In this document: positions 3,155 to 62,116 of the stretch, in pieces
How positions within the stretch are numbered: the stretch's first letter is position 1
Layout of the letters: each line of letters opens with the position of its first letter
Source: Tubiluchus corallicola
Lineage: Eukaryota > Priapulida > Priapulimorpha > Priapulimorphida > Tubiluchidae
Reading direction: 5' to 3'
DNA length: 64,000 nt
Assembly (NCBI GenBank): GCA_030141605.1
Contig: JAQGDQ010000534.1
Location: 87,366-151,365 of the forward strand
Program-made: the position numbers and the translations under genes
The notes under the pieces: model-generated
Seen by the model: the letters and a program-made list of their open reading frames with translations, nothing else
The model's database searches: none
Told to the model about the DNA's origin: nothing

Positions 3155-3201
3155 AGTAAAAGAAATGTAAAATCAAAATATTTTTAATGTTTAAAACATA
3201 C

Positions 3202-3348
3202 CTGCTTGGTTATTTGCCAGGTCAATCTTGCCACAAGGATAAGGGCTCGGATGTTTTGGTCTCAACGGAATGGAGGGCAAGTAACCTTGTTGCTTTGCAT
3301 CGGGTATGGAAGAGCTGCTTACACTCGTAAATGGTGGTGATGGCGGAA
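3202..3348 (-). CDS. Exon 28: Pro-rich cytoplasmic tail (last exon seen)
   Basis: 147 nt, phase 1 to 1, donor GTATGT, so at least one more exon lies below 3200 or outside the window. Encodes VPPSPPFTSVSSSSIPDAKQ, YLPSIPLRPKHPSPYPCG: proline-rich stretches that could bind SH3-type domains (inference). Confidence 0.85.
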
Positions 3349-6300
3349 CTGGATAAAAAAGGGATTTATCCTGTAAATTTTTCCCGTACAAATCAATAAT
3401 GTTATGTAGCTAAACTGTAATACAACTATTTACATTAATGGTCTACTTCTTGTTATGCCTTAATTATATGTATTAATGTAAAAATGTTGTTTCATGTTTC
3501 TTTAAAAGAAAACCGGATGATTGTGTAAACATTAGTTCAAAACAAAGTATGCTCTAAAATACTGAAAACTACAATAGCTTTTTTAAAATCAAAGCTTAGA
3601 TTAAATAATAATTACCTCGGATAATTAATTTTCTTAAACTTTCAAAGCTACTCAGCGAATCAGCTAAGACTGGCAATGGTGCCTTTTTGCCACATTCGCA
3701 TATCCGACAAAAAGGCGTGGTACCATGATAAGCATGATCATGAACTGCAGTGTTCGTATGTGACATTTGTGTGACGTAGAGCTGATTTCCGTGACATCAC
3801 ATCAGCATCTTACAGCAATCTTCACTTACAAAAACCTGCCTGACACGCAAGGACGATGGCTACCATTGCACTAACTGTGGTTAGTTTGTGATGTAAGTGA
3901 TAGCTGTGTTCGGTTCCCATTAATTAACTTTCCAAGGTAAATATTAGAAACAACTGCTAACTTTTATAGGCAAGAAAATGCGTATTTTGAACAGTAAATT
4001 AAAATGAGATTGAGTCTAATCAATTGTCCGACTTTCCTTTAAGAATATACTTACCTACGTCCTTGTCGGAATTCAGGTTGTTTAGTTCTATATTAGGAGC
4101 AAGTTGCCAACCTCGGTTACTCGACAGAGATTCTTTACGGATGTGACTCGTATGATCAGGAGATACAGAACAGCAAGAGTCTTTGTACTTTTTCTGGTCG
4201 CAGATCAATGCAGATTCTGCAGTTAAATCCTTCTTTAATTTTGATTCTCCTAAATTTCAAAAAAAAGACGTCAGTACTTGTGATGGGTGTAATTAGTGAA
4301 TTTTCATAGTTGTCTCCCCAGCATACGTGCCTTTGATAATAGAATGGTGACCATTTTGACAACGTGCAGTCCTTTGCACAACAGAATGTGTCTTTCGTAG
4401 TTCTTTATTCAAATATGAGACACAAAAACGTGTGTTTTTTGGAGGCAAGGAATGTAGGAGAGTAACACACAGCAAATTTTGCTCTCTAATCAGAAGCACT
4501 TGTGAGTTACTAGGCGAGTTACTCCAGGTCGTTAGAAACGAAGTAACATCTAGAAAATTCGCTGGTCTGAACACGCCATTAGTAATTATTATTAAAGGAT
4601 AAATCAACCCTCAAAAAACAATCATTCACATATTTTAACATACACTTAAAGATATTGAAATTACAACACAACGTAGAATACCTTGCTTAAAAATGCAAAA
4701 GAAATTTAAATCTTTAAATATTAACTTAATTAACGGCAGGCGAGCCCAACTATTGATCGCATCACAAACTAACACAATTTCCAACAGCAAAAATATTCCA
4801 CTAGCGTGGTGCATGTGTTTGCAAAAGCGAAAATTGAAATATAGCATTACTGTAAGATATTGTGGAATTGGATACTATGGAAGTGAAATTGTGTTTGTAT
4901 GACAATAATTCACGTAAGTCATTTTTGAAAAAATAGTATGTTTCCTTTCAATAATTTAACGAACAGATTATTTTGACCTACAGTTTAAGATTGGGTAAGG
5001 TTTTAATCTATAACTTTATTATCAGAAACGCTTTTGCAGTATTAATCGTGTTAAAATGTATACTTTTATCGGACTTGGAAATGGGGTAGTTTATGAAAAA
5101 ACATCCTTTCTTCCTTTAACATACAAGCGCCGGGTTTAGGTGTGTGTTCATTTCGCTAAAACGCCGAAAAAGAAGAAATTTGGACAGTCTCCTCTCGCGC
5201 AATATCTTGAGTAAAAGAGACGGTCTAAATTTCTTCTTCTTCAAAGTTGTAGTCAGCGTCAGTGACATTCATAAATATGGCAAACGCATATTAATTACTT
5301 TAAATAAACTCATTATAGTGGAATGCTTATCAATTTATATGAAAAGGAATGATTATGATTGATTTATTTTACAAAATGGCCCAAAGCAAACCGAAACAGA
5401 AATAAGTAGGGTAGGAATCACATCAGTTGTGTGGTCACACATTTTATCCTGTCTTCGTTTAATTAGAAAATCATAATTGTTAATGGAAGTGCATTAACCG
5501 ACAAAATTATGCAGTATACGTGTCGTAAATTTCCTTTTATCACGGAATTCCAGTATACTAGTTTACAACTAAATCACAAACACCTTAACTCCAAAATAAA
5601 TTTCTAAAATTTTAATTCCATGAGTTTTTGATAGAATCAGTAACACAACCAGTTTTTTCCTAAAATTAAAGCCACACCTGCCCCAAAACCGGCCCAAAAG
5701 AAGTTCCTCTCAAACAAGTATTCATCCACCAATCAAACCTTGCAAAAAAGTAGGGCCAATTATTATGTATAAAGACATAAATATGACTAAAGTCTTGTGG
5801 ACTTGTTCAAGTTCACAATAATAGCAATGTCCCGAATTGCAGTCATACGATATGTAATGGACAAAAATTACCTTTGTACTGAAAATGATTGATTCTGTGC
5901 CTTCGAATAAACAAAACAGCAATGACCACAATGACAATCGTCAGGAAAACACCTCCTAGCACTCCGATTATCGTCCCAACCTCTGCACTAGTAAGTGAAG
6001 CTGCTGCTGTTCCGGGTTTCTGAAGAACATCGTCTAGTTGTTGGAAACAAAGTGAAAATAGTAAATGCGACTGCAAATGTTGATATTCTGGATTTTAACT
6101 TAAAGGACAAGAAAGGGGTATCTGAAGTAGGTTTCAGAAAAATCGCCTTAAAAAATTATATTACTTTACAGCAATTTTATGCATACATCGTACTCACGTT
6201 GAAAGTAGTTTTTGTTTGTTTTCATTTTAAATCTCCAGCAATACTGTTCAGAAAAGGAAATGTTAAATTGTCTCAAAAAACTTTCCATACAAAGTTATAT

Positions 6301-9300
6301 TGCTTAGCATTTCGCTTACATGCTTGAAATATTTTTATTTAACGAGAAAAGAAAATTATTGATTGTTTAAAATGTTTTCACTAATTGGCAAAATTTCATT
6401 GACTCCTCCCTCACAGGGGGCACCACTCACTAACCAAAAAACCTATTTTTAATCTCACAGTAGTAAGCAGTGGCAGCGGTGGCAGTGGTGGTGGCAGTGG
6501 TGGGTTAAAGGACATATATTTAAAAATTATATTACTTTAAAGCAATTTTATGGTATAATACTCGTAATGAAAGGATTTTTTGTTTGTCTTCATTTTAAAT
6601 CTCCTGCAATATTGTTCCGACCGCACCATTACGTGACGTCATGTACGCACAACGTAAATCAGAGGAAGAAAAGGCAATGTTTAATGATGTCCGAAAAAAC
6701 TTCCCATGCAAAGTTATGCTACTTAGCATTTAGAGTGATTTTTATCATTTGTTGTTTTAAATCCGTGTTTTGCAATTTTGTTGAATAAACTATTATTATT
6801 TTTAATATATAAACTCTTATATACTAACTATATAAAGTAAACTACGTATAACTTGCACAGCTAAGGACCAGAATATTTGTTCGAGTTATGCCAGGGTGTG
6901 AGTTAGGCAGCGTTCGTAAGAGAACAGGATTAAGTCGTTCATCAATATCAGACAATACACCAGTAACATTACAGCCTGTGAAAATGACAAACTGAGCCTT
7001 TAATCTAATATCAAACAATTTTCATAAATAATTGAAAATAAAATGTCTGGTCCACCTCTATTGTAGTCTGAGCAGCATTGTTAATAGAATTTGGGAATAA
7101 TAATATTGTGATCTAGTTATTAAACCAAGTTCGTTAAGCCATGTTGTGTGCAGCGTTCTGCTAAGGTAATACAAGAAATCTTAGCATTTTTGCTGAAACT
7201 AGCAGTTCAAATCATAATGCGGTGCATACTTTTGCACAGGACTTCTTGCTTGGGAGGCTGTTCAAGACTCGAGGTCGAGACAGCCGGGGTAATTTCAGTT
7301 AGATTCTTAGAGATTGTATCGGGAACACAGTCAGAGTTGCGCGATAATTCAAGTTACAGATTCCGAGTTACGCGATGTTTGGTAAAGAGAAGGATGAAAG
7401 AAAAAATCTGTTCCACGAGATCTGTTCAAGATATGCAAAATTTTGAGTTATACATCGTTTACTGTATATACATATACATATATGTGTATGCATATACATA
7501 CATACATATATTAAGAAAATTATTAAGAAAAAGAAAACAAAAAATAGAATTCAAAAAGGATGTCCTTACACTACATATATTCTCATTCCAGAATAGAAAA
7601 AGCACTTCTAAAAGCAGACACAGCACTTAGGCATGCTCACATGACATAATTACCTAAGAAAATGCACAACTTCAACCCACACGTATCTTTAAATTGACTA
7701 TCTTTACATTGACTATCTTCACGGCTATCTTTGCGTTGAAATTATAAATATAACATCAACGTAACTTACTTTCAGCTAAGGAGGTGAACTTGTAAAGGGC
7801 AGTACTGCTCCCTGCTTCATTGTGTGCCGTCACTCGCAGTGTGTACCGTGTACCAGGATTCAAATCAAGAATGCGAAAGATTTTCTGAAATGCAGTTAAA
7901 CCAGCAAAATGATTGACAACACACGACCATTTACAACAGTTGCTTATAATTAACATCTTAATTCTTTCACATTTATATATTTTTTAAAATAATTAAGGAT
8001 TGTTTATTATAACAAACATCTCCTAGGAGAAACTAAAATTCACCATTAAATTCTTTCTTCTTCTTCTTCGAAGTCTCATTCTATCTTGTGTTGACACTGA
8101 GGCTGTGAATTATTACCATTATACTGAATTTGTTATTCAATAGCCTAAATTTTAGTTTTAAGTTCTATTAAATGACATTTTTGTAAAAATGTATAAAAAT
8201 TTCTAAAATAAAATAAAAATAGGAAAAAAATTCCTCATTAACTACACGAAATTCTTTTCTTCAAAGTCTCATTCCGTACGTGTTGTAGGCATTCGGGTAC
8301 TAACATTTATTAGAGTATTCCACCCACTCCTATCTGCAGCTAACAGCGTAAGTTCTTCTACTCCTAAAGATAGATTTGGTTGAAATTGTTGAACATCTTT
8401 ATTTATCTTAGCTATCCAAGTTGTTTTTGATTTGCCAGGTGGTTTTTTGCAAGGTTTTAAGGCTTCCTTTAAGGCAATTCTTACTGGTGCTTCACTCGGT
8501 AATCTTAGAAGATGTCCTAGCCATCTTGATCTTCGGATCTTGACTTTCGAACTCCAAGAAATTTCTTTGATTCTAGCGTATAAATCTTCATTTTTGATTG
8601 TGTATGGCCATTTTGTCTTTAAACCTTTCTTTAGAAGACTTCTATGAAGTGTGTCAATCTGCTTTTCTTGAGTAATCATTAAGACCCATGTTTAACTGTA
8701 TTAGTGTAAATCCCATGTTTATGATGTATTAAAATTCCTAAATACAAGATTAATTAAAAAAAATCAAGATGGCAGATTTTTTTATTTTGTACATATACTT
8801 ATTCAGTAACACAAATTGTTGGCAAGTTTCTTAAATTTTAGAAAATTTTGTAAAACATATAAAAATATAAGAAATTTCTAGTTTTACCTGATTAGGTCTA
8901 ACATTGTTATCGACCGTTTTCCAATTCCCGATGTCTGATGGTTGATAATCAATGACAAAAGACTTCATTGGACAGCCTCCATCTGACCAAGCTGACAAGT
9001 TCAAGGTTACGTAGGTTGAGTTGAGTTGAATAAACGAATCACTTGAAGGTTCAACCGGGGCTGCAACAATAAAGCAACAATGCAGCAAACTACGGCAATA
9101 GAAAGCATTCAAAGGTACAGCAAAGTATGAACACTGAAAATTTTGCCACCTTGCCACTCATCAAAAAGGCCTTTCACTTGTTACTTCACATTCATTACAA
9201 AATGTTAATAAGCAATACAAGAATTCTAAACATTGTTAAGTACAGTAAACTATGTATAACTCAAATTATCGTGTAACTTGATCCCAGTTCTCAATGCAAC

Positions 9301-12300
9301 TCTTAAGAATCTGACTAAAATACCTCGCCTGTCAAAAACAGCCTAGTTAGCAAGAAGTCGTACACGAATGTGTACACCAAATGACGATTTTAACTGCTAG
9401 TTTCAGCAAAGATGCTAAGATTTCTTGTATTGCCTTAGCAGAACGCTGTCCACACAACATGGCTTAATAAACGTGGTTTAATAACAAGATCACAATATTA
9501 TTATTGCCGAATTCTATTGACCATGCTACTCTGACTACAGCAGAGGTGAACCAGACATTTTATTTTTGATTATTCATAAAAACTGCTGATTGATATTTGA
9601 TTAAAGGCACAGTTTGTCCTTTCCATAGTCTGTAGTGCTGCTAGTGTATTGTCAGACATTGTTGGAGGGTCAGAGTGACTGAATCTTGTACGCAAACAAA
9701 TTTCCTGGTCCCGAGATGTTCGAATTATACATAGTTTACTGTTATTTCAGTATACCTGAACCAAGCGTCTTTGATGAGATGATAGAGCTAGGTTCACTGC
9801 GGCCTATCTTGTTGGACAATGACATGGAAAACTGATAATTGCTACCGCACTGAAGTTCATCCACCAAAACTGTGCGATTCTTTGGTGACACTTCGATTTT
9901 CTTCCAATCTTCAAACTCCCTTTTATAATTGAGGAGAGCTCCTAGAAGAAAGAGAAGCAAGAAAAAACTTTGGAACCACGTCAATGTGTAATGAGGAAGT
10001 GCCAGCAATGTAGGCAGGTTTTAAGTTTAAAAAAAAAGCACTGTGACATATCAAGCAATTATATGTTTGTCTATGCCACAACAGACAGTATCAGCCTGTG
10101 AAAAGAATATATTATAATAATTAGATTTGGAGCAATTTGACCCTTGGTTATGTAAATGGACGTTCACTTCAAAAACACGGGAAGCAAGTTGGTCAAATAA
10201 AGTAACAAGGCAAGTTGCTGAAAAGGTGCCAGTTTTGAAAAATGTGCTGGGAGAGCGTTTGCTCTCTCTCTCTGCTGCCCTATTAGCTATGCCACTGCCA
10301 AGAGCATTACACTAGAGCAGTGATTCTAAACCTTTTTTATTTGCTGATGCGGCAGACGGCTTTGCTTTGCCCACATGTCATTAGACGATTGTAGTTAAGC
10401 TTTGATCTACTGCTCAAACTGTTTATTTATCTGCACAATATATTGACATTTGCGTGGCTTAGAGCAGTGATTCTTAACCTTTTATTCGCTGCTGATGCAG
10501 CAGATGGCTTTGCTTTGCTGTATCGAACTCACGACCTCTCAGACTGAAAGTGGACACGTTATCACAAGGCTAAAACGTCTTGTACATTATTAAAGCATTT
10601 TGGTAGTTATTAAAACACTTAAAATATACCTGAAATTGGACTTGCATTTGAACCTTGTACAGACCAATTTAGCACCATGAAATCAGCCTTTACTAACGTT
10701 ATCCTCAGCAATGGTGGGTGAGGCGGAGCTGAAAAAATAATTTTAAAAAATTAAATAGTTAATGCACCTGTTTGTTAAAAAAATAAAAATGATGAAAGTA
10801 CATTTGTTAAAAAATAAAAATGATGAAAGTACACAACGGAATTTCCCTTTGGGTGAAAAAACAACAAACAGGAACGGGAAACAGTACCTCTTACTAAAAG
10901 CGTGTAAGTGATTTCGTCTCTGCCCAAAACATTTCGCACTCTGCAAGTATAATTTCCAGCACTGTCCAAATGAACTTGTCTTAACCGCAAGGATCCATTT
11001 GCCGAAAGTTGCATCTCCTTCATCCGGACAATGACCTTTCCACTGAAATGAAACTTCATTTGACACGCCAATCCTACTGATTTAGCAATATTGGTCAAAT
11101 TATTCGGCGATGTGCGAAAACAGGCAGGTGTATGAGAAAACCGTAATTTTATGAAAAGCAATTGTTATTACTTTATACTGTAATAAAAAATTACCACCAG
11201 ACCGGTTTTTTTGCATTTTACCCTTTTACCATACGCATCCCAGTAAACCTTTTCTATGACTTTTTCTAAATATGTTTTGTGAACAAAATATTTTCAGTTA
11301 TTTATTTTAGGCGCATTGTCTCACCGCGAAATAAAAGTGAAAATGCAATATGTTGATTTTTTAAAATTGTCGAAACTTTACTTCGCTTGTCTATACATTA
11401 TACGGGCGATGTATCTGATAAAACAAAATGTCAGACATCTGTATGCTGAGGTAGAACTAGTCTACTCATAAATTCAAAATAACAATGATTTTTGCACACG
11501 CGCTAGCAATATCGGTTGTCTACAGTTATTCCGGCATAGATAAGGGAACGTAACTAAGTAAATTTCAATTTCGTATTACTAGTAAGTCACATGTCTTTAA
11601 GCAGAGGTATAATGTATCCTATGGTGGTCAGCATAACCACAAATTATGCTGTTGCTGTTTACTAATGAAACACGGCGGTTTATCAAAAGTAATTTACGAA
11701 TTATGGTGGAGGTAATTTTTTACCCGTGTAAAAGCGTGACCCTATAAGGGTTAAAAGGTACATGTACAGTAAGGGAAACGTCCCTACTTTGCGGAAATTC
11801 ACTTATCGCGGGTGGGCCTGGAACGGAACACCCACGATAAGTGAGGGAACACTGTAAAATGGAGGTTTCAGGCAAACACGAAGAAATTAATCAGTAGAAA
11901 CATGAGTTAACTCAAAGAGTGTTTAACTTATATGATTTAAGCAGCATTGATTTTTGTCCATGGAACGTATCTCAATTCTTTTACATTACTTTCTATGGAA
12001 GTCTTGGTTTCATTTAACGTTTTGCTTAACGTCACATTTTACTGGAACGCATTAGCGTCGTTAAGCGAGGACTTACTGTACAAAAAAAATTCTTTAAAAA
12101 ACATTAAGATTTTTCACAATTATTTTTTTCATACTGCATGAAAAGCGTCATAGCTTGTAACGTTTTACATTACACGTACAATTTTTGTAAAAAAGTACGT
12201 ACATTTTACTTAAAGGAAAACCTGAGGATTATGTAAACATGAGTTCAGAATAAAGCGCACTCTTAAAATATTGAAAACTACAATAGTTTTTTTATACCAA

Positions 12301-15300
12301 AGCTTAGATTAAATAATAATTACCTCGGATATTCAAATTTCCTTAAGCTTTCAAAGCTACTCGCAGCTCAGTGAATCTACTAAGATTGACAACAGTGCTT
12401 TTTGTCACATTCGCGTAGGCGACAAATAGAAGGTGGTACCGTGATAACCATGATCATGAAGTGCTGTGTTAGTTTCTTACGTCAGATGTACAGCTGTTTT
12501 TCGTGACATCACGCGTTTAAGCAGTAACACCTACGCAAACGTGCTTGATGCGCAAGGGAAGATGCCTGTCATTGCACAAACTGTGGTTAGTTTTTGACGT
12601 AAGCAATAGCTGTGTTCGGCTGCCATTAATTAACTTTCTAAGCCAATTATTCAAATATAAGAAACTACTAACTTTTATAGGCAAGAAAACGTAATTTCAG
12701 ACAGTAAATTAAAATGAGATTGAGTCTAAACAATCATCCGGTTTTCCTTTAAGGTGAAGTGAAAAACGGTACTGTACATAAAACTACATTATTATGCATT
12801 CTAACTTATAAACCACATTGATACTAACTTGTAAAGCCAAACAATTTGAGGTTTTGGCTTCCCAGCAAAATGGCAGTGAAGTGTGGCTTCCTTGTTCCAT
12901 GTTACTATGTACTTTCCTCCAAAAGTTACAATTCTGGCGGGAACTGAAAAAAACGAAAAATATTTGCACTCATCAGACCAACAAAATTGAGCAAGCCAAA
13001 TTCGAACCTCAAAAATTTAAAGCATTTAAATAATTATTTATTATAACTCATTATTAATAAATAATAATCACAGTAGTTAAGACGATAAATTTGTTTGTTT
13101 TCAATGAATTAGGTGAGCGAGAATGCAATAAAATGGTTAAAGTATGTTTAAAGAAAAAAGGGAAATTTTAAACTGTCCCTAAGAATTTTCTACACAAATT
13201 AATATTACTTAGCATTTCACTTCCTGTTTGAAAGAATTATGCAACCAGAAAAGAAAATTCTTAATAATTTAAAGTTTTCGTGCCATTTGGTAAAACAGCG
13301 CTGCAGTATGCACCACTGATTCATCAAAAAACACATTATTTATTTTAGTGAAAATATAAAATAATTTATATTCTTAGGTAGTTAGCAAAGAGTGCGCTAT
13401 AAATGCTCTGGTTACTTTTCAAAACTTACGGAATCTTATCAAAACTTGTTTCAATTGACTTGCCCTCAAAATGGCATTGACGAAAGGTCATTTGTGGGAG
13501 TTTAAATTTACATGTTTTATACTGTGTTACTGCTAACACAAGTCCTGTATGCAACAAGAGAGCACCTAAATGATATAAAAATTTCAAGATGAATTTTTTT
13601 AAAGCTTTATTTGAGAACAGTATTTTCATGCACTTTAAAAATCAGTTATAAAAACTACAACTACAGCACAAACATAGTGTAAACAAGTCAATGACAGAAA
13701 TCTTCGCGAAACTAAGCAACTAACCTTTCTTATTGGGAGTGCTTTGAATAGACGATGAAGGCTCTCCCTCTCCGACAGATGTCCATGCTTCTACCCAAAA
13801 TGTGTATGTGCAGGTACTATGTAACTTACTGGCTTTATATTCTAGCTGCCTCGAAGGAATATCGACTTGGTGTCTAATCTAAAGAACCAGAAGAAACTGT
13901 TTAAACTCTAGTACTGCCACACTCATCAGTCAAACTCTCTCCTCCCCCATAATCACTGTGCGACCATTACCGTGTTTCAACTTTATAAGATTCTGCCATT
14001 TTAAGTGATGCGACAAGGACAGTTGTACACGAAATGTCATAGAACGACTAAAATTGTCAAAATAAATTTTAGCCAAATCTCCCTAGTATGTAAGCTTGAC
14101 CAATAGCTCAAAATTTTGACTGCAATTTATCATAACAACGATGACTATACTACAGGAATGGTACGTAATCTTTTGGTAAGGGTGTTTAGAAGCAACAAGA
14201 AATATTACAGACAAATTTATTACACAAAAATGGTAGCAATACTATCATAAGCTCAAAATTTAGTCTGTGAGCCTTCAACATCTCGGACAGCCTGAAAACT
14301 TGGACCAGCGACTAAAAGAACTGAAGATTATAGAATACATCTCAGAGATGTCTTGCAAGTTTGTAAGTCAGTCGGTCGGTCGGTCAGTCGGTCGATAGGT
14401 AGGTAGGTAGGTAGGTAGGTAGGTAAGTAAGTAAGTAAGTAAGTAAGTAAACCATTTCATTATAGAATGATACACACAACGAAATTTATGTGGTATTACA
14501 TACTGCAATAACTTAAGGAAACAACAAGGAGATTAACACAAATAATTCAATCAGTTGTACAGTGACATAGAGAATCAATAGTGGAGATTTACTGAAATTT
14601 ACTGTTGATGGTGCGAATTGCAACGGGATAGAAAGAATTTAAAGTTCTTGTGGTTTTAGCATTAAATGAGCGGAATCTATGACCAGAGGGGAACATTTCA
14701 AAATAATTATTGTCTCTTGAATACTGATCAATTGAATGGATCAGTCAAGAATTCATTTAAATTAAGTTTTAAGAATGTTTTAAATTACTTGCTAGACAAG
14801 CGTAATTTATGTTTATCGCCCATATGTAACAATTGTAATTTACAGTTTGAAACTTCAGAACTTTTTTTGTTCATGTGTGCTGTATATATTAATATACGTT
14901 TACCTTTTCTTACTAAAGTACCTTCTATTCTTCTTACTAAAGTACCAAAGGACTAAATTGAAATCTTATATTACAATGCTTTCAACAGTAGGATACTTAA
15001 AGATCAGTTCTACGTTTACAAAAGTGGAAATATGGGCACAGCAAAGCCAAAAAACTGAAAAGCTCAAATCCTTTATAGGCAGATTAACAACTAGTCAATG
15101 TACGAGTTGATCTGTCACGTTAATTTTGCAATAAGCTGTTTCACAGATCTAATGATTGATGATGATCATGAAAAGGTTATCAACATCAAACAATGCACTA
15201 ATAACACTACAAATGGTGAAAAGAACAAATTGAGCCTCAAATCAAATATTAACCCACATTTTTTATGATTAATCAAAAGTAAAATGACTGGTCCACCTCT

Positions 15301-18300
15301 AATGTAGCTGATAGCATGGTTAATAGAATTTGGCAATAATAATATTCTGATCTACATTAAATCACGTTCGTTAAACCATGTTGTGTGCAGCATTCTGCTA
15401 AGGTAATGCAGGAAATCTTAGCATTTTTGCTGAAACTAGCAGTTAAAAATGTCATGTGGTGTATACTTTCACGTAAGATTTCTCGCTTGGGAGACTGTCT
15501 GAGATAGGCAAGGTAAATTCAGCCAGATTCTTAAGGCCTTTTCACAGTTCCAGTGATTGATGATGATCACAAAAAGGTCAAAGGTTAAGTGTACCAGACA
15601 ATGCATTTGTGTACACTTGACAACGCCTCGCCGCCCATGCTACTGTAACAGTAACCGTTTTAACAGCTAGCTAGAACCTTACCTAATTCATTTTTTCTTG
15701 TTCCCAAGCAAGATCCTGGGTGTAAATCACTCTACACACAGACTAATGCATAATTAACTAAAGTCCAAGTAAAACAACTGAAATTACTGAATTGATGACT
15801 TACTTTACCCACACGTCACCTGACACTTGTAGCAAAGACACATTGCTGTGCTACGCTTAACCTTTGACCTACAGCAACTGCCCGTGCGCACAATGAAACT
15901 ATGAAAAGGCTGATTAGTTTACTGGCAATAGATAAATCATAGTAAATTTTTTTCTAAATGTGGAATTAACACCATATTACCTTACTAAAGTCTGATTACT
16001 TTATTAGGGTACGGACAGCAGCTAACTAAATAATATGTCAAAATTATTGACTCCTGCAATGCAGAAAGTTACATTCTAAGCACGTACCTCTTTTCCTGCA
16101 TGCACGTGACGCCTGTAAACAGTGTAGCGTAGAAGAATTCCATTTGCTTCTCTCGGAGGCAACCAAGCAATAATGACCGAATCAGCGGCGGCGACTACAG
16201 CTTTGATTTTTGCTGGTGGTCCAGGTTCTAGAAAAAGAGAAGCTGTCACATCCGTCATTATTATATGACCCGAGAATTAGTACCAGTGATTATGAAAGTT
16301 AAAAGAGTTATAATTTTTTAAAGAAAGACAGGATGATTTTTCACATAGTACCCTATTTTCAAGTTCGATAAAAAGTATACATTTGAACACAATTAATACT
16401 GCAAAAGCGTTTCTGTGCCACTGTAAGAGATACAGCGTGTTCTATTTGTATTAAAACCAGGCAAGTTTGAAGATTAAAATTCAAATTTCAAGTTTACTTG
16501 TGTGCTCACGCATGAGCTGTCGAACCTGTGCAGTACATCACAAACTAACACATCTGAACTGAAAGCTACAGCGCCTATTTTTTGTGCAATGTGTTTGCAA
16601 AATGCAGGTGCAAGTGCCCATCTAACTAGCAAATAGCGAAATGCATGTAACAGCAAAGAACTAGTGAACGTGAAATTGTGTTTGTGTTGTAATAATTCTT
16701 TCACGTAAGTTATTTTTGAAAAAGTTATTTTCTTTCAATACTTTAAAGAGTAGATCGTTTTGACCTACTGTTTAAGATTGAGTCCGGTTTTGCTTTAACC
16801 AAAATCAGCCTCTTAATAACAGACAATAAATACTAAGCTAGATTTAATGAATACTTGATAAATAATTACCATTACCCTCAAAGTTATGACTATTGTTAAA
16901 CGACCATAAGTAAGGTAAGGTATTTACTCACTGTCTTCAAAAGTTCTGATATAAATGGCTTCACTGTTCACACCATCACCTACTCGAGTGAACGCAAGCA
17001 CCTGTACGCTGTAATTTGTGTACTTCATTAGCCCATAAACTGTTATGGTCAGTCCAGGCGTCGTTTTGTACAACGGTTTCATATCTGATATTATAACAAA
17101 GGAGCCACATTATCAATTGTGCTATTTACAAATAAATGTACAGAAAAAGTATCAATGATTTCGCTGATAGAGAATTTAGCAAACAAAGAGCTCATAGTCA
17201 ATCCCATAAAGGTTACTGACCAGACCAACTTGCAAGTCTAGGTGATGATGAAATTAATTAAGAATGTTCCAAAACAAACTGATGTAATTAAAGGAAAACT
17301 GGACGATTAATGTTTAGACTCAATCCCATTTTAATTTAGTGTCAAAAATATACACTTTCTTGCCTATAAAAGTTAGTAATTGTTTCTTATATTTGAATAA
17401 TTAGCTGACAAAGTTAATTAACGGCAACCGAACACAGCTATTGCTTACATCAGAAACTAACCTCAGTGTGTGCAATGGCAGGTGTCTTCCCTTGCGCATC
17501 AAGCACGTTTGCGTAAGTGTACTGTAAAACACATGATGTCACGAAAAATGGGTTTTACATCATGTGACATCATGAAACTAACACTGAAATTAATGAACGT
17601 GCTTATCACGGTACCGCCTTCTATTTGTCGGCCACGCAAATGTGACAAAAAGGCGCCGCTGCCAATCTTAGTAGATTCACTGAGCCACGCGTAGCTTTGA
17701 AAGTTTAACGAAATTTGAGTATCCAAGGTAATTATTATTTAAATCTAAGCTTTGATTCAAAATAAGCTATTTTAGTTTTCAATATTTTAGAGCATTCTTT
17801 TTTGTGTACTAATGTTTACACAATCAGCCGGTTTCCTTTAAAATGTTCCAAGGCGAACTGATATAATTACCATTCACCCAATTTTGATAAATAACCCAGC
17901 ATTATTTGTAGCTTAGCAATTTAAAACTATTACCTTCTGCAAATGCATTGTCTAAGATTGGCCGCAATGTTATCTTGTAAGCTTGCAAAATTCCATGAAT
18001 GTCTTCAAATGGCGGAGGCAACCATTCCACAATAATGCCTGATGAAGATAATGCAACAGCTTCGACATTCCTGGGTGAACTAGTGGGCACTGTATTTTAA
18101 AAACAATAATTTAGTGCAATATCTCGAATGTGTTTAAAACATTATGATATGTTATCAACACCTACAATGTAGTTTTTGTATCAAATTACGGTCCCTAAGC
18201 TGGAGTACAGCTAATATTTTTTAGAAGACAGCGCAAGCAAAAGTGCAATGTGTTTGCAAAATTTCTAAATAAAATTTTATTTAATTACCAAAACACAGCA

Positions 18301-21034
18301 TAATCACAATGTTATCCCAATAACCGTATCATTTACATTACTAACAATAATTTAATAATCTATTGACATTGCTATTCATTACAAAGTTGAAGTTAATATT
18401 CTAGCAAGCTGTTATTATAAGGTGAACAACAATAAAAAACAAAGGAAGAGGACAATACATAAAATAACACTGTACTATAACAAAGAAGAGGATAATACAT
18501 AAAATAGAACTGTACTATATAACAAAGAAGAGGATAATACATAAAATAGAACTGTACTATATAACAAAGAAGAGGATAATACATAAAATAGAACTGTACT
18601 ATATAACAAAGAAGAGGATAATACATAAAATAGAACTGTACTATATAACAAAGAAGAGGATAATACATAAAATAGAAATGTACTATATATAACAAAGAAG
18701 AGGATAATACATAACATAGAACTGAACTATATAACAAAGAAGAGAATAATACATAACATAGAACTGAACTATATAACAAAGAGGAGGATAATACATAAAA
18801 TAGAACTGTACTTAACAAAGAAGAGGATAACACATAAATTAATACTGTACTATAACAAAGAAGAGGACAATACATAAAATAACACTTTTCTTAACAAAGA
18901 AGAGGATAATACATGAAATAACACTGTACTTAACAAAGAAGGGGATAATACATGAAATAACACTGTACTTAACAAAGAAGGGGATAATACGTAAAATAGA
19001 ACTGTACTATATAACAAAGAAGAGAATAATACATAACATAGAACTGAACTATATAACAAAGAGGAGGATAATACATAAAATAGAACTGTATTTAACAAAG
19101 AAGAGGATAACACATAAATTAATACTGTACTATAACAAAGAAGAGGACAATACATAAAATAACACTTTTCTTAACAAAGAAGAGGATAATACATGAAATA
19201 ACACTGTACTTAACAAAGAAGAGGATAATACATGAAATAACACTGTACTTAACAAAGAAGAGGATAATACATGAAATAACACTGTACTTAACAAAGAAGA
19301 GGATAATACGTAAAATAACACTGTACTTAACAAAGAAGGGGATAATACGTAAAATAACACTGTACTTAACAAAGAAGGGGATAATATGTAAAATAACATT
19401 GAACTCAACAAAGAAGAGGATAATACATGAAATAACACTGTACTTAACAAAGAGGAGGATAATAAGTAAAATAAAACTGAACTTAACAAAGAAAAGGATG
19501 ATATATAAAATAACACAGCACTCAACAAAGAAGAGGATAATACATGAAATAACACTGTACTTAAGAAAGGAGAGAATAATACATGAAATAACACTGTACC
19601 TAACAAAGAAAAGGATAATACATAATGATAACATCATCTCATAACAAGCTAGGCAACAGCCTATAGCTTTGCAAAATATGCATAATGAAGCAATCAGAAA
19701 ACCAAAGTGTTTGTAAATGCATTAAGTAAATAAAACCAACCATCCTCCAAAGTGCAAACGATAAATTCTTTCGAGCGCGGACCCGTTCCTCGTGCATTGA
19801 AAGCCGAAACTACAATGCAGTAAGTGGAGAATTTCTTCAGGCTTTCCAGTTCGTGCTGTTCTTCTTTTGCTCCGGAAAATGTGACAGTGTGGTATAAGTA
19901 CGGTCCTGAACTGTTGTGCAGTTTGTATCCAACGTAATACCCTTTCAACTCTCCATTCCACTTATTAAACGGGGGAGGCTAAAAACACAGACTTAAACTG
20001 CGCACAAGAATAATAGGATTATCAATTCGTAAATTCGTAAAATCACCAAAAGTGCCAAATGCCATAAAAACACTAGTAATGTGACGAGTTGAAAATCAAT
20101 CAAACTTCAAGACGGATATAATAATTTATGAAAAATTTACACGAATGATTTTCATTAACGCGATATGAAATGGGAAGTGCTAAAGCAAGGTACTATGTAG
20201 GTACCCGGAGTCAGTCATCATTGCAATTAAGGCAAACAGAATAAGGCGACTGCTGCACGACATTAGCGAGGAGTATCTTGAGACAATTTCAAAAAATTAT
20301 TGCAGGGAAAAGTGCAAGGTTCGCAAAAAGTCGCTTTCTAATTTAGTATTGCTTTGGTGCGCTTAGTAAATTGCCCAGGGTGCACATAAAGTGCAAAACC
20401 GGTCCCAAAGTCATCACAAAATACTCGAAAGCGCCACAAACTGTTCGCCAAGATTTCGCAAAGTCTGAAATTGTTACAAATGTTTGACGACAAGTTTGCG
20501 AACGTTTGTCGCACCTTTACGGTTTGGCAAAGTTTTAATGAAGTGGCGAGCTTTGCAACTCCAGCGACAAACTTTAAACATTTTAGAAACACTTTCCGAA
20601 TTCGGCAACCTTTTTGGCGACAACAGCGAACATCTGCGAATATTTTGCGACTGTCTGGCAAACTTTTGGCTACTGATGAACGCAGAAATTTTCGCAATGT
20701 CGCCGATGCCAGGAAAGCCTAGCTTTACTCCACTAACCGTTGAGCAGTACAAGTTTCATTACTTCCTGTGTTTTTTATATTTTGTCGGTATCAATGTTTT
20801 TCTAATAAATAATTACCATTCACAAATAATAATTTGAAGCATTAACAATAGAATGAACCAAAACTTATAAATCTGTGGAAAATTACATGCTGTATGGTTA
20901 TTATGTTTCTGTTTTGCAAGTTAAAAAAACATCAAATTTTAATGCAATAAAAGCAGCTCTTACTTTCCATTGTATATGAATAGACTGTGACCCGGTGGCT
21001 TTTACTTGAACATCTAATGGCACGCCATCTGGAA
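3202..21034 (-). CDS. DSCAM-like receptor, C-terminal half (FN3 x3, Ig, FN3 x2, TM, tail)
   Basis: Fifteen phase-consistent exons encode, in order, FN3-FN3-FN3-Ig-FN3-FN3-TM-cytoplasmic. This is the order of DSCAM from FN2 through FN4, Ig10, FN5, FN6 and TM. Signature strings match the family: GYYVGYKLHNS, TLEDG, YTNYSVQVLAFTRVGDG, PGPPAKIKAV, WLPP, WSDGGCPMKSF. Each FN3 is built from two exons and all domain borders are phase 1, as in DSCAM genes. DSCAM mediates homophilic adhesion and neurite self-avoidance in other animals. The usual start (signal peptide, Ig1-9, FN1) is absent; ADAMTS exons lie upstream instead. The tail continues beyond position 1 of the window. Confidence 0.9.
3501..4043 (+). 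mobile_element. Inverted-repeat element family B
   Basis: About 540 nt bounded by TTAAAGGAAAACCGGATGATTG-type inverted ends. Related copies at 12219-12753, 17288-17841, 47778-48000 (partial), 49059-49609, 61584-62116 and 63600-64000 (partial). Confidence 0.8.
4055..4249 (-). CDS. Exon 27: cytoplasmic tail
   Basis: 195 nt, phase 1 to 1, donor GTAAGT. Encodes ESKLKKDLTAESALICDQKK, YKDSCCSVSPDHTSHIRKES, NIELNNLNSDKDV. No domain recognised. A transposon-like repeat ends about 12 nt from the donor. Confidence 0.88.
4700..5122. mobile_element. Element related to 16316-16798, rearranged
   Basis: The part at 4900-5010 matches 16690-16798 in the same orientation, while 5025-5122 matches 16316-16420 inverted. 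Ends CTTCCTTTAA resemble family B. Confidence 0.55.
5123..5871. other. Intron DNA, nothing recognised
   Basis: AT-rich intron between exons 27 and 26; no exon, RNA or clear repeat seen. Confidence 0.5.
5872..6033 (-). CDS. Exon 26: transmembrane segment
   Basis: 162 nt, phase 1 to 1. Short juxtamembrane linker, then the hydrophobic stretch IIGVLGGVFLTIVIVVIAVL followed by FIRRHR, a stop-transfer signal for a type I protein. An alternative acceptor 14 nt into the exon (TTCTTCAG) would break the phase. Confidence 0.92.
6095..6790 (+). mobile_element. Family E element, two partial copies
   Basis: Segments 6095-6420 and 6508-6790 share TTCATTTTAAATCTCC and CAATATTGTTC with the longer copy at 33610-34342. 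A (GGTGGCAGT)-rich stretch at 6470-6505 separates them. Confidence 0.65.
6833..7470 (+). mobile_element. Inverted-repeat element family D
   Basis: Ends AAAGTAAACTACGTATAACT and its near complement at 7440-7470. Shares internal CCATGTTGTGTGCAGCGTTC with copies at 9237-9743 (inverted) and 15179-15530. Confidence 0.7.
7770..7884 (-). CDS. Exon 25: fifth FN3, second part
   Basis: 115 nt, phase 0 to 1, donor GTAAGT. Encodes KIFRILDLNPGTRYTLRVTA, HNEAGSSTALYKFTSLAE. Confidence 0.94.
8269..8680 (-). mobile_element. RTE-like LINE, 3' fragment of ORF
   Basis: Minus-strand frame reads SRWLGHLLRLPSEAPVRIAL then LKPCKKPPGKSKTTWI, the conserved C-terminal motif of RTE-clade retrotransposons. Truncated at its 5' end. 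Confidence 0.8.
8888..9060 (-). CDS. Exon 24: fifth FN3 (DSCAM FN6), first part
   Basis: 173 nt, phase 1 to 0. Encodes APVEPSSDSFIQLNSTYVTL, LSAWSDGGCPMKSFVIDYQP; the WxDGGCPxxxFxxxY motif is diagnostic of DSCAM FN6. Confidence 0.95.
9237..9743 (-). mobile_element. Family D element, second copy
   Basis: Ends ACAGTAAACTATGTATAACT and its complement; inverted relative to 6833-7470. The lower-numbered end faces exon 24; the 9743 end lies 12 nt from the donor of exon 23. Confidence 0.75.
9756..9941 (-). CDS. Exon 23: fourth FN3, second part
   Basis: 186 nt, phase 1 to 1. Encodes GALLNYKREFEDWKKIEVSP, VLVDELQCGSNYQFSMSLSN, SKTLGS; LxCGxxYxF matches DSCAM FN5. An inverted-repeat element ends about 12 nt from the donor. 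Confidence 0.93.
10316..10530. mobile_element. hAT-like termini, tandem
   Basis: AGAGCAGTGATTCTWAACCTTTT followed by a CAGAYGGCTTTGCTTTGC block occurs twice, about 147 nt apart. CAGTGRTTCTYAACCTTTT is a common hAT terminus. Confidence 0.45.
10630..10728 (-). CDS. Exon 22: fourth FN3 (DSCAM FN5), first part
   Basis: 99 nt, phase 1 to 1. Encodes APPHPPLLRITLVKADFMVL, NWSVQGSNASPIS. Acceptor TTTTCAG, donor GTATAT. Confidence 0.9.
10888..11042 (-). CDS. Exon 21: Ig domain, second half
   Basis: 155 nt, phase 2 to 1, acceptor CATTTCAG. Encodes GKVIVRMKEMQLSANGSLRL, LDSAGNYTCRVRNVLG; the DxAxYxC motif gives the second Ig Cys. Donor GTACTG is less canonical. Confidence 0.93.
11764..12085. mobile_element. 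pogo/Tigger-like remnants
   Basis: CAGTAAGGGAAACGTCCCT and ACTTATCGCGGGTGGGCCTG then CGATAAGTGAGGGAACACTG resemble Tigger termini; a second end-like block, TTAAGCGAGGACTTACTGTA, is at about 12060-12080. Confidence 0.5.
12219..12753 (+). mobile_element. Family B element
   Basis: Bounded by TTAAAGGAAAACCTGAGGAT and ATCATCCGGTTTTCCTTTAA; same structure as 3501-4043. Confidence 0.8.
12829..12943 (-). CDS. Exon 20: Ig domain, first half
   Basis: 115 nt, phase 1 to 2, acceptor TTTTTTTCAG, donor GTTAGT. Encodes VPARIVTFGGKYIVTW, ATLHCHFAGKPKPQIVWLY; Cys and Trp of the Ig core are present. Equivalent to DSCAM Ig10. Confidence 0.93.
13130..13720 (+). mobile_element. Family E element, partial
   Basis: Shares GAGTTTAAATTTACATGTTT and TATTACTTAGCATTTCACTT with 33610-34342. 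It ends close to the donor of exon 19. Confidence 0.55.
13725..13878 (-). CDS. Exon 19: third FN3, second half
   Basis: 154 nt, phase 0 to 1. Encodes IRHQVDIPSRQLEYKASKLH, YTFWVEAWTSVGEGEPSSS. Donor GTTAGT, acceptor TTCTTTAG. No open frame long enough to stand out on its own; found by phase and homology. Confidence 0.9.
14371..14450. repeat. Tetranucleotide microsatellite
   Basis: (GTCG)n grading into (GTAG)n then (GTAA)n, an orderly change of unit along 80 nt. Confidence 0.95.
14451..15178. other. Intron DNA, nothing recognised
   Basis: Intron between exons 19 and 18. No exon or recognised repeat; a 96-codon plus-strand frame at 14666-14956 has no family features. Confidence 0.5.
15179..15911 (-). 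mobile_element. Family D fragment followed by a family C element
   Basis: 15179-15530 matches the middle of 6833-7470. 15535-15911 is family C inverted, ending CTATGAAAAGGCT. Confidence 0.7.
16088..16227 (-). CDS. Exon 18: third FN3, first half
   Basis: 140 nt, phase 1 to 0. Encodes KPGPPAKIKAVVAAADSVII then AWLPPREANGILLRYTVYRR, matching DSCAM FN4. Donor GTACGT. Confidence 0.95.
16316..16798 (+). mobile_element. Inverted-repeat element related to family B
   Basis: Ends TTAAAGAAAGACAGGATG and CCGGTTTTGCTTTAA; internal sequence differs from family B but matches 4700-5122. Confidence 0.6.
16932..17084 (-). CDS. Exon 17: second FN3, second half
   Basis: 153 nt, phase 1 to 1. Encodes YGLMKYTNYSVQVLAFTRVG, DGVNSEAIYIRTFED; strongly DSCAM-like (YTNYSxQVLAxTxxGDGVxS). 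Donor GTGAGT. Confidence 0.95.
17288..17841 (-). mobile_element. Family B element, inverted
   Basis: Bounded by TTAAAGGAAAACTGGACGAT and CAGCCGGTTTCCTTTAA. Confidence 0.8.
17934..18089 (-). CDS. Exon 16: second FN3, first half
   Basis: 156 nt, phase 1 to 1. Encodes VPTSSPRNVEAVALSSSG, VEWLPPPFEDIHGILQAYKI. Donor GTAATA, acceptor AATACAG. Confidence 0.94.
18433..19630. repeat. Minisatellite, 39 and 42 bp units
   Basis: About 30 copies of AACAAAGAAGAGGATAATAC plus a variable tail (ATAAAATAGAACTGTACTAT or ATGAAATAACACTGTACTT). Lies wholly in the intron between exons 16 and 15. The 18433-18830 part is mostly 42-mers, 19140-19630 mostly 39-mers; a block around 18710-18900 recurs at 19010-19200. 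Confidence 0.95.
19741..19978 (-). CDS. Exon 15: rest of first FN3
   Basis: 238 nt, phase 0 to 1, acceptor GTTTTTAG, donor GTTGGT. Encodes PPPFNKWNGELKGYYVGYKL, LESLKKFSTYCIVVSAFNAR, GTGP and TLEDG, the classic FN3 C to G strands of DSCAM. Confidence 0.95.
20270..20750. repeat. GCGAA/TTCGC-rich stretch, probable old repeat
   Basis: Contains many short variants of TTTGCGA and TTCGCAA on both strands and gives open frames in several phases. No protein family recognised. Confidence 0.35.
20964..21034 (-). CDS. Exon 14: first DSCAM exon (start of FN3, equivalent to FN2)
   Basis: 71 nt, phase 1 to 0, acceptor TTTCTCTAG, donor GTAAGA. Encodes VPDGVPLDVQVKATGSQSIH IQWK, the A and B strands of an FN3 domain. 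Confidence 0.9.
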
Positions 21035-21289
21035 CTAGAGAAAATGTTTCAATGAACAGAAATGTTATTTTACTTGTGAAATATGCATAGCTCAATTCAG
21101 TAAGCAAGTTTAACTAAAGGTGAAAGATAATATCAGCATGAAAAATGAAGGACATGACTCGTCTATAAAGTTTATACATTAAGATTCTAAGATTTCACAA
21201 CTCTTGTTGACTTATGAAACTCATAGCTTACAAAATTTTTAAAATATGAGCATAAATAAATAATATATTAATGTGAAATATTATAAATA

Positions 21290-22985
21290 TTAATAATATC
21301 AATAACAATACAATAACAATAAAAACCAATACAAACAAATCACACACAAACTTAGATAAACATGAAAATTACAATAATAGTCTCCACCATTGCTGTCTTA
21401 TGTGCGATGTAAATTTAGCATCGCTTATTAAAATTTTCTGGCACATTAAATTATCACTAGTATCAAATCTTTTCATTAAACTTAACACAGATTTTCTACG
21501 TAATACATCAAAATACATCACGTGAATTTCAACACTCATCTCACGAGCACTGTAAAAATATGCATATCCAAAAAAATAATCTTTTTGATACATTGTGTGC
21601 AATTTTGAGTTTTAAGATATTACAATTATTAAAATGTCCCCAGGTAGACATGCAATAGAATGTATTACAGTAAGCACTAAATAGATATATTTTAACATCA
21701 ACAGAACAATAGCTGAATTTCTAATAAGTTGGTTTGTACGACAGTAGCATAAGGATCTTTGATTAACAATGTCAAGGTCATCTCGGTTATCATTTGAAAT
21801 AATATGGCTCAAATAATTTTCATTATCACAGGTACGTAAAACATTATTATCTAGTATGATGTTACCAAACATAAAATTTCTCAAAATATTTGAATTAACA
21901 GACATAAGTTTAGTTTTAGGTACATTGATTTTTATGTCATACTGTTCAGCATACAATTTACACACATCTAGTAGTTGCTGTAGGGCTGTAATCGTTGTTG
22001 CTAACTAACAAACATCGTCAGCATACATCAGGTGGTTCATAACCATGTTTGAGACATTGCAACCAAGTTTGGTGGATAAAAGCTTAACACTTAGATCTTT
22101 AAAATAAAAATTAAAAAGAGAAGGTGACCGACATCTTGCCACCTTGGCGTACTCCATTTCCAATATTAGAAGTTGTAGACTGACTATGTCCCCACCTGAC
22201 AGACATGCCTTGTTGCATGTAATAAATGTGAGCAAGCGGATTACAATATTCGGAATTGAAGTCTTTGTGAGTTTGAGAAAAAGTTTGAAGAAATTAACCC
22301 TATCAAATACCTTTGACAAGTCAATAAAAACAATGTGAACAGAGCTATCATGACTAACGTAGTAGTCAATGATCTCCTTTAATGTGTTTATGCAAATTTC
22401 GGTGCCAAGTTTTTCTGTAAAACAAAACTGATTAGGAGTTGTTGGAATATACTGTTTGTATCTGTTAAGTAATAAAATTTCGAATATTTTGCTGGCAACA
22501 GAAGCTAGTACAATTGGCCTATAGTTATTTGCATCCGTAATATCTTTATATTTATCCTTTACTAGAGGAATTAATATAGACATCATTAGCGATTCAGGAA
22601 GAAAGCCGTGAATCAAACACGAGCTAAATAACAAGGATAAATAAACCGGTAACATTGAGGAAGAATACTTAAAAAGTTCGACCTGTATACCATCAGGACC
22701 TGCAGATTTATGCAAGGTTAGTGTGCCGATTGCATCTTGCACCTCTCTAACAGTAAACTTGGGTATAATATGCATATCTTCTGCAAGGGCCCGGTGCAGC
22801 TGCGCCTCCAGATTCCATTTATCAACCCAATTAAAAAGAACACGATGTGCTCCGCCCACATATTACAAATGTTGTTTTCTCCTGTTATATTATTAATGTT
22901 AGAGGGAAGAGGAAGTTTAGAATTAGTTTCTTTCTTTATTGTTTTCTAAAACTGGTAGGAGTTGCAATGCATAAAGACGGTAGGC
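21290..22985 (-). mobile_element. CR1/Rex1-like LINE, 5'-truncated, degenerate
   Basis: Frame 22859-22005 reads KSAGPDGIQVELFKYSSSML, NNYRPIVLASVASKIFEILL, VFIDLSKVFDRVNFFKLF and MYADD: reverse transcriptase motifs. Frame 21965-21612 carries DIKINVPKTKLMSVNSNIL. A stop and frame change separate them. Its upstream end abuts the (GA)n tract at 22998. Confidence 0.85.
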
Positions 22986-22997
22986 AATTTTGTCTGA

Positions 22998-23004
22998 AGA
23001 GAGA

Positions 23005-23052
<48 letters not shown>

Positions 23053-23493
23053 GAGACAGAGAGAGAGACAGAGAGAGAGACACAGAGAGAGACAGAGAGA
23101 GAGACACAGAGAGAGACAGAGAGAGAGACACAGAGAGAGACAGAGAGAGAGACACAGAGAGAGAGAGAGAGAGAGAGACACAGAGAGAGAGAGAGAGAGA
23201 GACACAGAGAGAGACAGAGAGAGAGACACAGAGAGAGACAGAGAGAGAGACACAGAGAGAGACACAGAGAGAGACAGAGAGAGAGACACAGAGAGAGACA
23301 GAGAGAGAGACACAGAGAGAGACAGAGAGAGAGACACAGAGAGAGACAGAGAGAGAGACACAGAGAGAGACAGAGAGAGAGACACAGAGAGAGACAGAGA
23401 GAGAGACACAGAGAGAGACAGAGATAATTATAATAATAAGAGAGAGAGAGAGAGAAAGCAAGAGAGAGAGAGAGAAAAAGAGAGAGAGAAAGA

Positions 23494-23541
<48 letters not shown>

Positions 23542-23601
23542 AGTAAGAGAGGGAGAGGGGGGAGAGAGCAAGACAGAGAGAGTGAGAGAGATAATTATAA
23601 T
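22998..23601. repeat. (GA)n microsatellite with GACA variants
   Basis: About 600 nt of GA with regular GACACAGAGA variants of 12-22 nt period. Interrupted at 23424-23440 by ATAATTATAATAATAA, identical to the tail of the LINE at 23590. Confidence 0.97.
23424..23440 (-). mobile_element. Tail-only LINE insertion remnant
   Basis: ATAATTATAATAATAA lies within pure GA repeat. The same string begins the LINE tail at 23590, so this looks like an insertion truncated to its 3' tail. Confidence 0.5.
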
Positions 23602-23980
23602 AATAATAAATCTTTATTAAAGAAGTGAATATATATACACGAAGGTGCCTCTTTTTGCAGGCTCATATCAACAAATTACATTTTCACATAACAAATCTTT
23701 TAAATCCAGTTTCACACTATGTACAACGAATAACATTTTATACTTAAATTAGATATAATTTCAAACGAATCACAAGTATTATACAAACAAATTAACTTTA
23801 CACAACTACATAATTTATTTTTGTATACTCGAGCGGGCCTAAATTAACAATTACTTAGTATAAAATTATCTCTGATCAGGTTAGTGAAAGCCATTATTAA
23901 ATTTTTATCAGATTGAAGCAGAATATTACTTGTATAATTGGCATCAGCTATTTCTATGAAACGCATTCTTTTTGCATTAT

Positions 23981-26900: not shown

Positions 26901-27171
26901 GACTTTCTAGCTCTTTAATTTTGCAGCTATTTATGTTGGTTTTGACAAAAACCGCTACTCCTCCATGAAAAGGTCTGCATGACTTAAAGTACTCTTTATA
27001 GTTCGTTAGTTTCGGAAATTGTTGAGCTGGGTCTACCCGCGTCTCTTGAACTGATACGATGTCAAAGTTTTCTCTATTTACGTAATTGTCTAATGCTAAA
27101 GTTGAGCGAGGTGGCAACGAATGGATGTTAATTTGGCATACCTTGAAAAGACGATCTCGTGTTTGAGTCAT
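23981..27171 (-). pseudogene. LINE ORF2 (APE endonuclease plus reverse transcriptase), broken
   Basis: Endonuclease motifs: VCQINIHSL, VSVQETR, GGVAVFVKTN, TGDFNARCFLWD, STIDLVIST, MGHYPVIS. RT motifs: NASNYRPITISSYVGKLVE, CCDYEKAFD, GLPQGSVIAPILF, YVDDGSL. At least four frame breaks (near 26850, 26180, 25290 and 24510), so the copy is dead. Confidence 0.88.
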
Positions 27172-28079: not shown

Positions 28080-28082
28080 TAT

Positions 28083-28518
<436 letters not shown>

Positions 28519-30885: not shown

Positions 30886-30914
30886 ATTTCGTTACTGGAT
30901 TTAGTAAGGGCACA

Positions 30915-31130
30915 CAGTGGTGGCTCGTGTAACGTAATAAGCCTTTTTTTCTTTCTTTACAATTGCACGGTCCAGAGCACGTGAGGGTAATACTGCTTGC
31001 TTCACAGCCCAGCACAGTGAACTCACAGCTCAGGCAATGTGATGTCTGGCTGTTGTGTGCATGCACACATATCTCAGATAACACACTGCGCTTTAGGTAG
31101 AAAAAGTCCTGTCACTCACGCAGTGCAGTG
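30915..31130 (+). mobile_element. hAT-like element, partial
   Basis: Starts CAGTGGTGGCTCGTG; shares GAGCACGTGAGGGTA with 889-1375. Ends without a terminus close to exon 13. Confidence 0.6.
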
Positions 31131-31190
31131 ATAAATATACTCTATACACCTCTAAATAAACAGTATCTATACAAGAGTAAAGCTAGCTAC

Positions 31191-53506
<22,316 letters not shown>

Positions 53507-61342: not shown

Positions 61343-61583
61343 GTAAGCTGAATTCTTTGTGGTTTCACTAATATTTAATATTTTCATTATACTTAGTGAC
61401 AGCATTAAAAATTAAGAATTAAAATTTTTGCTGCTACTAAGAGCTTCTAAGCACCAATTTGAGTTGTAAAACTATTACTGTTTAAAAAATTAAATTGCTA
61501 GTTTTATTCTTGCCCATTCCATCTCTTAATGTTTTAATTACTTTAAAGTTTATTATACCGTAAACATGTGGCGTCGTGTTATT

Positions 61584-62116
61584 CTTAAAGGAAAACTGGA
61601 TGATTGTGTAAACACGAGTTCAGAGTAAAGAATGCTCTAAAATATTGAAAACTACAATAACTTTTTTTAAAATCAAAACTTAGTTTAAATAATAATTGCC
61701 TCGGATACTCAAATTTCGTTAAACTTTCAAAGCTACGCGCGAGATTGGCAATGGCGCCTTTTTGTCACATGCACATGACCGACAAATAGAAGGCGGTGCC
61801 GTGATAACTATAATCATGAACTGCTGTGCTAGTTTCTGACGTCATATGATGTAAAGCTCATTTTTCGTGACATCAGGCGTTTAAACAGTACCATAACACT
61901 TATGCCAAATGTGCTTGACGCGCGAGGGAAGACGCCTGCCATTGCACAAACTGTGGTTAGTTTCTGACGTAAGCAATACCTGTGTTCGGTTGCCGTTAAT
62001 TAACTTTCTAAGCTAATTATTCAAATATGAGAAACAATTATAGGCAAGAAAATGTATATTTTGGACAGTAAATTAAAATGAGATTGGATCTAAACAATCG
62101 CCCGGTTTTCCTTTAA
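61584..62116 (+). mobile_element. Family B element
   Basis: Starts TTAAAGGAAAACTGGATGAT; ends CGCCCGGTTTTCCTTTAA. Inside the intron of the plus-strand gene. Confidence 0.8.

Follow-up and report, generated by a model that had tools for sequence, protein, structure and literature searches.

The spacer and the TSP tail of ADAMTS proteases serve in matrix binding. Excerpts from the literature describe these proteases as secreted, matrix-associated enzymes (PMC4448532), report that in ADAMTS-4 and -5 the spacer, or the Cys-rich domain together with the spacer, binds aggrecan (PMC10499240), and treat membrane anchoring and shedding as features of the ADAMs (PMC4885070). For the Dscam family, they describe chelicerate genes shortened via domain loss, in which the sDscams are without Ig1-6, Ig10, FN3-4 and FN6 and the mDscams without C-terminal FNIII and Ig domains (PMC5775551); the word "protease" is absent from the main text of that paper. 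No fusion of ADAMTS and DSCAM is reported in the titles or abstract openings listed by searches of open-licence papers (most lists being limited to the best 12 or 15).

The window analyzed here, a 64-kb stretch of DNA from Tubiluchus corallicola, contains on its minus strand 13 ADAMTS exons (A1 to A13, 53506-31191) followed by 15 DSCAM-type exons (D1 to D15, 21034-3191). Exons were located by tblastn using human ADAMTS1 and DSCAM sequences as queries. Consecutive ADAMTS exons appeared between 48.7 and 31.2 kb and DSCAM FN2 to FN6 exons between 21.0 and 7.8 kb, all on the minus strand, and splice borders were read by hand for 13 and 12 exons, plus three for the transmembrane (TM) segment and the tail. 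The exons are bordered by AG acceptors and GT donors, A1 opens at an ATG, D15 closes at a stop, and the 28-exon model has no internal stop over 1481 codons. A1 (putative signal peptide) as well as D14 and D15 (tail) were defined by open reading frame (ORF) and splice sites, without homology. In this one model, Pfam recognizes a reprolysin domain (E 6.8e-27), the propeptide, ADAMTS_CR_2, TSP_1, and ADAMTS_CR_3, and also five fn3 stretches, an I-set domain, and the DSCAM C-terminal FN3 (E 5.7e-38). An earlier note on this DNA had described 13 ADAMTS and then 15 DSCAM exons on one strand, none of them broken and with 27 phase-consistent joins, including a phase 1 to phase 1 join from the end of A13 (31191) to the start of D1 (21034). 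All of this was re-derived (27/27 joins keep phase); only the gene end, given there as 3202, had to be moved to the stop codon at 3193-3191.

Judged from its predicted protein, the front half encodes a zinc protease similar to ADAMTS7/12 that extends up to the Cys-rich domain. It shares with the ADAMTS7/ADAMTS12 group the propeptide, furin site, reprolysin, disintegrin-like, TSP1, and Cys-rich domains and is 42-50% identical, in the best local alignment, to the 120 relatives listed, many of which are named ADAMTS7 or 12 and some 6-like. The putative start exon A1 (53398..53506; ORF, ATG, and donor only) encodes a short, hydrophobic N-terminus that was not flagged in a 19-residue hydropathy scan. 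The propeptide (Pep_M12B_propep in Pfam) is encoded by A2 (51777..52123) and A3 (49724..49877; exon model), the latter with the sequence YFIEPL, which we take to be a propeptide motif. A4 (48568..48782; model, 3' end and donor copied downstream) contains the furin site RLKR at residue 235, another such site being RVKR at residue 73, and the start of the catalytic domain, which continues through A5 (47468..47551) and A6 (43512..43636) to A7 (40889..41038), with the zinc site HEMGH(N), and A8 (38533..38694), with FGMRHDD and the Met-turn LMSS (A5 to A8 by tblastn and model). The zinc motif HExxHxxGxxHD is found at residue 390. The disintegrin-like domain (PF17771, ADAMTS_CR_2) corresponds to A9 (36618..36861), the first part of the central TSP1 repeat (PF00090, TSP_1) to A10 (35653..35798), the end of this repeat and the Cys-rich start to A11 (34351..34532), and the remaining Cys-rich domain (PF19236) to A12 (31881..32017) and A13 (31191..31311), the last of which carries 13 further residues toward the spacer, as seen by comparison with relatives, and a phase 1 donor.

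The ADAMTS half was compared with 22 relatives, hand-picked from the best 120 matches listed. It keeps 176 of the 184 columns conserved to at least 95% (0.96) and all conserved Cys columns (35/35), and the relatives themselves, each left out in turn, keep at least 0.93 (median 0.98). By these counts, the ADAMTS half has no sign of decay. In a comparison with PDB, ADAMTS-5, -13, -1, and -4 rank first (best E 1.5e-94). Unlike in the ADAMTS7/ADAMTS12 group, neither a spacer nor C-terminal TSP repeats could be located in the window, and a membrane span, if the halves are joined, would stand in place of secretion. A profile built from 119 spacers reached at best 1.5 bits on both strands of the 64 kb, as compared to 82, 52, and 41 bits for the Cys-rich control profile in A11, A12, and A13, respectively, and ADAMTS-tail queries against the whole window matched nothing beyond the known exons at an E better than 0.05.

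A tandem array at 48006-48588 (minus strand) starts with the last bases of A4 and its splice donor (ATAATGAACATG/GTATGT) and runs into the intron. Its 11 copies, mostly 51-53 bp apart, all have three or fewer mismatches, and 8 of them are exact over 18 bases. It consists of duplicated donor sites, and readthrough past A4's own donor meets a stop within a few codons. A stretch related to a dispersed repeat of ~560 bp adjoins this array (47772-48001).

The back half has the canonical order of the adhesion receptors DSCAM and Dscam1-2, FN2-FN3-FN4-Ig10-FN5-FN6-TM, followed by a short tail of ~120 residues, and is 37-41% identical to the 120 arthropod Dscams listed, but would have, if the halves are joined, a protease in place of Ig1-9 and FN1. 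FN2 starts in D1 (20964..21034; acceptor phase 1, tblastn and model) and continues in D2 (19741..19978; tblastn and Pfam fn3), and is followed by FN3 in D3 (17934..18089) and D4 (16932..17084) and FN4 in D5 (16088..16227) and D6 (13725..13878), these four exons by tblastn and model. Ig10, located between FN4 and FN5, is encoded by D7 (12829..12943) and D8 (10888..11042; both tblastn and Pfam), FN5 by D9 (10630..10728; model) and D10 (9756..9941; tblastn and model), and FN6 by D11 (8888..9060) and D12 (7770..7884), where the DSCAM-type Pfam model FN3_DSCAM-DSCAML_C (PF25059) scores 129.6 bits. The TM segment after FN6 lies in D13 (5872..6033; residues 1326-1359, 19-residue hydropathy up to 3.18), and the cytoplasmic tail in D14 (4055..4249) and D15 (3191..3348, ending with TAA), both defined by splice sites. 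In the comparison of the back half with PDB, titin came first (1.3e-50), followed by contactins, receptor phosphatases, and Dscam (1e-34), and with the FN2-FN3 piece a receptor phosphatase (1.3e-35) ranked slightly above a Dscam chain (2.8e-31). Since this ranking puts non-Dscam proteins first, we base the assignment to DSCAM on the Pfam model specific to this family, on the order of the domains, and on the protein search.

Against 12 arthropod Dscams, hand-picked from the best 120 listed matches, the whole DSCAM half including the tail keeps 125 of 182 invariant columns and four of seven Cys columns. After this first count had come out low, a recount restricted to FN2-TM was chosen, in which 125/156 arthropod-invariant columns are kept (0.80), as compared to 112/156 in human DSCAM as control. 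In the same recount, one spider protein keeps 44/80, and 16 other partial Dscam proteins, hand-picked from the matches to a 401-residue piece across the join, keep 0.60-0.88. The 12 arthropod Dscams keep at least 0.93 among themselves (median 0.99). We take the lower score as probably reflecting distance from the arthropods and not decay, and read this half as belonging to a Dscam of neither insect nor crustacean origin, apparently still under constraint. In being shortened by loss of domains, it resembles the chelicerate sDscams and mDscams. Profiles of Ig1-9 and FN1, run over both strands of the 64 kb, matched known FN/Ig exons or noise only (at most the best 14 matches each), and neither FN1 nor Ig1-9 was found within the window upstream of D1 or upstream of A1.

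The two halves are separated by a join interval of 10,156 bp (21035..31190, minus strand), by far the largest intron of the model (median 1,120 bp, next 3,831 bp), in which spacer, Ig, and FN1 were not found. It contains stretches of decayed LINE-type elements, in which each of the three minus-strand frames matches reverse transcriptase and two match endonuclease, with ORFs interrupted by stop codons and shifts of frame, as well as GA repeats in two arrays (539 and 434 bp); by our reading, the interval probably consists mostly of decayed LINEs and GA repeats. According to the earlier note, the join sits exactly at domain borders. This holds on the DSCAM side, which opens at the first residues of FN2, but not on the ADAMTS side, where the Cys-rich model ADAMTS_CR_3 ends at residue 712 and A13 runs to residue 725, an overrun of 13 residues; past this end point, the chain continues as GY into the spacer in the five relatives compared. 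The introns of the model are in phase 1 in 14 of 27 cases, in phase 0 in 8, and in phase 2 in 5. With this distribution, two unrelated introns would match by chance with a probability of about 0.39 (~39% of unrelated pairs), so that the phase match alone is weak evidence.

The window contains no N. Self-comparison revealed that the regions of the DSCAM half and the ADAMTS half have 12 repeat matches in common (68-87% identity), six of which belong to the dispersed repeat of ~560 bp. Copies of this repeat were found in both orientations at 3477-4043, 12186-12753, 17287-17843, 49059-49614, 61560-62117, and 63602-64000, the last one being cut by the window end, and are 76-86% identical to each other. 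The dispersed repeats common to both halves indicate one genome and rule out a cross-species chimaera or contamination; they are still compatible with a misjoin within the genome. The intron between A5 and A6 harbors a 2.4-kb array of a 26-mer (43822-46231) and that between A6 and A7 a degenerate TTAGGG-like (telomere-like) array of ~1 kb (42422-43468). Both arrays were read through, the former without gap, which suggests an assembly from long reads. In the intron between A7 and A8, a full-length 5S rRNA match (102.8 bits; 39971-40089, plus strand) lies on the opposite strand and is either a gene copy or a 5S-derived SINE. An ORF of 515 codons from stop to stop (57711-56164, minus strand), containing ankyrin repeats and a MYND finger, is located 2.7 kb upstream of A1.

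Protein searches covered 5.8 billion proteins. The whole model matched 1574 proteins, and none of the 120 listed covers more than 53% of the query; the DSCAM half matched 1097, the 120 listed being Dscam by name or domains; and a 401-residue piece across the join matched 42, all listed. The earlier note had considered the combined architecture to be unlike either family, and this was borne out: not one of the 282 matches listed (131 to the ADAMTS half, 151 to the DSCAM half) carries both halves in one protein, and a relative of this kind should have ranked first in the whole-model search. No second species thus supports a fusion. The best identities among the matches listed were 50% (whole model), 41% (DSCAM half), and 54% (join piece), so that no listed match is close enough to be a transcript of the same species, and the searches speak neither for nor against transcription. 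Listed matches with names came from a scorpion, molluscs, and others for ADAMTS and from arthropods for Dscam; one match of the join piece, with its name shown as "Pr...", we take to be from Priapulus. These names point to an invertebrate, perhaps an ecdysozoan.

A real fusion gene coding for a membrane-tethered ADAMTS is the explanation that we favor as the most likely one, at about even odds. It would have arisen by a rearrangement within two phase-1 introns that placed the 5' exons of an ADAMTS7/12-like gene before the 3' exons of a DSCAM gene of canonical type, and A13 would be spliced to D1 in a single transcript. The encoded type I membrane protein would have a signal peptide and a propeptide cut off by furin at RLKR, an ectodomain consisting of the reprolysin zinc protease, the disintegrin-like, TSP1, and Cys-rich domains, and a six-domain stalk (FN2-4, Ig10, FN5-6), and then a single membrane-spanning segment with a short tail. 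If the enzyme is active, its Cys-rich domain would still place the substrate, the membrane anchor would replace the spacer and TSP tail, and substrates would be cut at the cell surface only; with the spacer swapped for a stalk, both the choice of substrate and the place of cleavage should change. The intact half-genes in order, the zinc site, the furin site, and the TM segment are in keeping with this reading, which the earlier note had put forward as an ADAM-like surface sheddase; the exact border given there for the ADAMTS side was not borne out. The lack of internal stops in either half counts for a fusion, since an old promoterless fragment should have acquired stops, as do the ankyrin-MYND ORF and the lack of Ig1-9/FN1 matches upstream of A1 in the window. 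Counted against it were the size and repeat content of the join interval and the lower conservation of the DSCAM half (0.80) as compared to the arthropod Dscams among themselves.

Both halves look canonical, which also counts against a fusion, because the same outcome is expected if an ADAMTS7/12 and a DSCAM gene, each broken in a repeat-rich intron, were wrongly joined by the assembler, with their other halves on other contigs. Such a misjoin within the genome predicts intact halves, as seen, and accounts for these and for the repeat-filled gap equally well as a fusion does; the LINE remnants and GA arrays of the join interval and the absence of the fusion among the matches listed are in its favor. 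We nevertheless regard it as unlikely, as the window is free of N, longer arrays elsewhere in it were read through, and a random join would have to match in gene, orientation, and phase, for which a rough estimate is a few per cent. Still less probable is that the order of the DNA is real and the halves are not spliced together, in which case a shortened, secreted ADAMTS would terminate within the intron that follows A13, and the DSCAM half would either start on its own or be a recent remnant. Readthrough past the A13 donor meets a stop after two codons, and the coding strand of the join interval contains 17 AATAAA or ATTAAA hexamers, both in favor of this reading. However, a simple scan limited to GTRAG donors found no credible exon with a signal peptide from which the DSCAM half could be transcribed separately (the one signal-peptide-like candidate in the join interval, as compared to zero in ten shuffles, lies inside a LINE reverse transcriptase ORF), the DSCAM half is free of stops and keeps more arthropod-invariant columns than the human DSCAM control, and the spacer carried by the listed ADAMTS relatives was not found in the window. 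Nested or interleaved genes, one lying in an intron of the other with the ADAMTS remainder downstream of the DSCAM exons or Ig1-9 upstream beyond the window, are highly improbable even though the window reaches only 3.2 kb past D15 and 10.5 kb before A1, given that the spacer and Ig1-9/FN1 profiles revealed nothing new on both strands of the 64 kb and that the ORF upstream of A1 is unrelated.

The favored fusion product, if the halves are joined, would resemble the ADAM sheddases in being a type I membrane protein with an extracellular reprolysin protease, but would differ from them in its TSP1 repeat, ADAMTS-type Cys-rich domain, and DSCAM stalk, and its listed relatives are ADAMTS and not ADAM proteins. 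That a membrane-tethered ADAMTS on a DSCAM stalk is transcribed and translated, and represents a second, independent ADAM-like surface protease that is possibly directed to neural membranes by its DSCAM part, is a tentative proposal with slightly less than even prospects in our estimate. If true, it would show exon shuffling to be capable of producing ADAM-like proteolysis at the cell surface de novo. The replaced spacer would provide a natural test of the role of this domain in ADAMTS proteases, and the DSCAM family would have gained a relative that carries an enzyme instead of the Ig1-9 recognition region.
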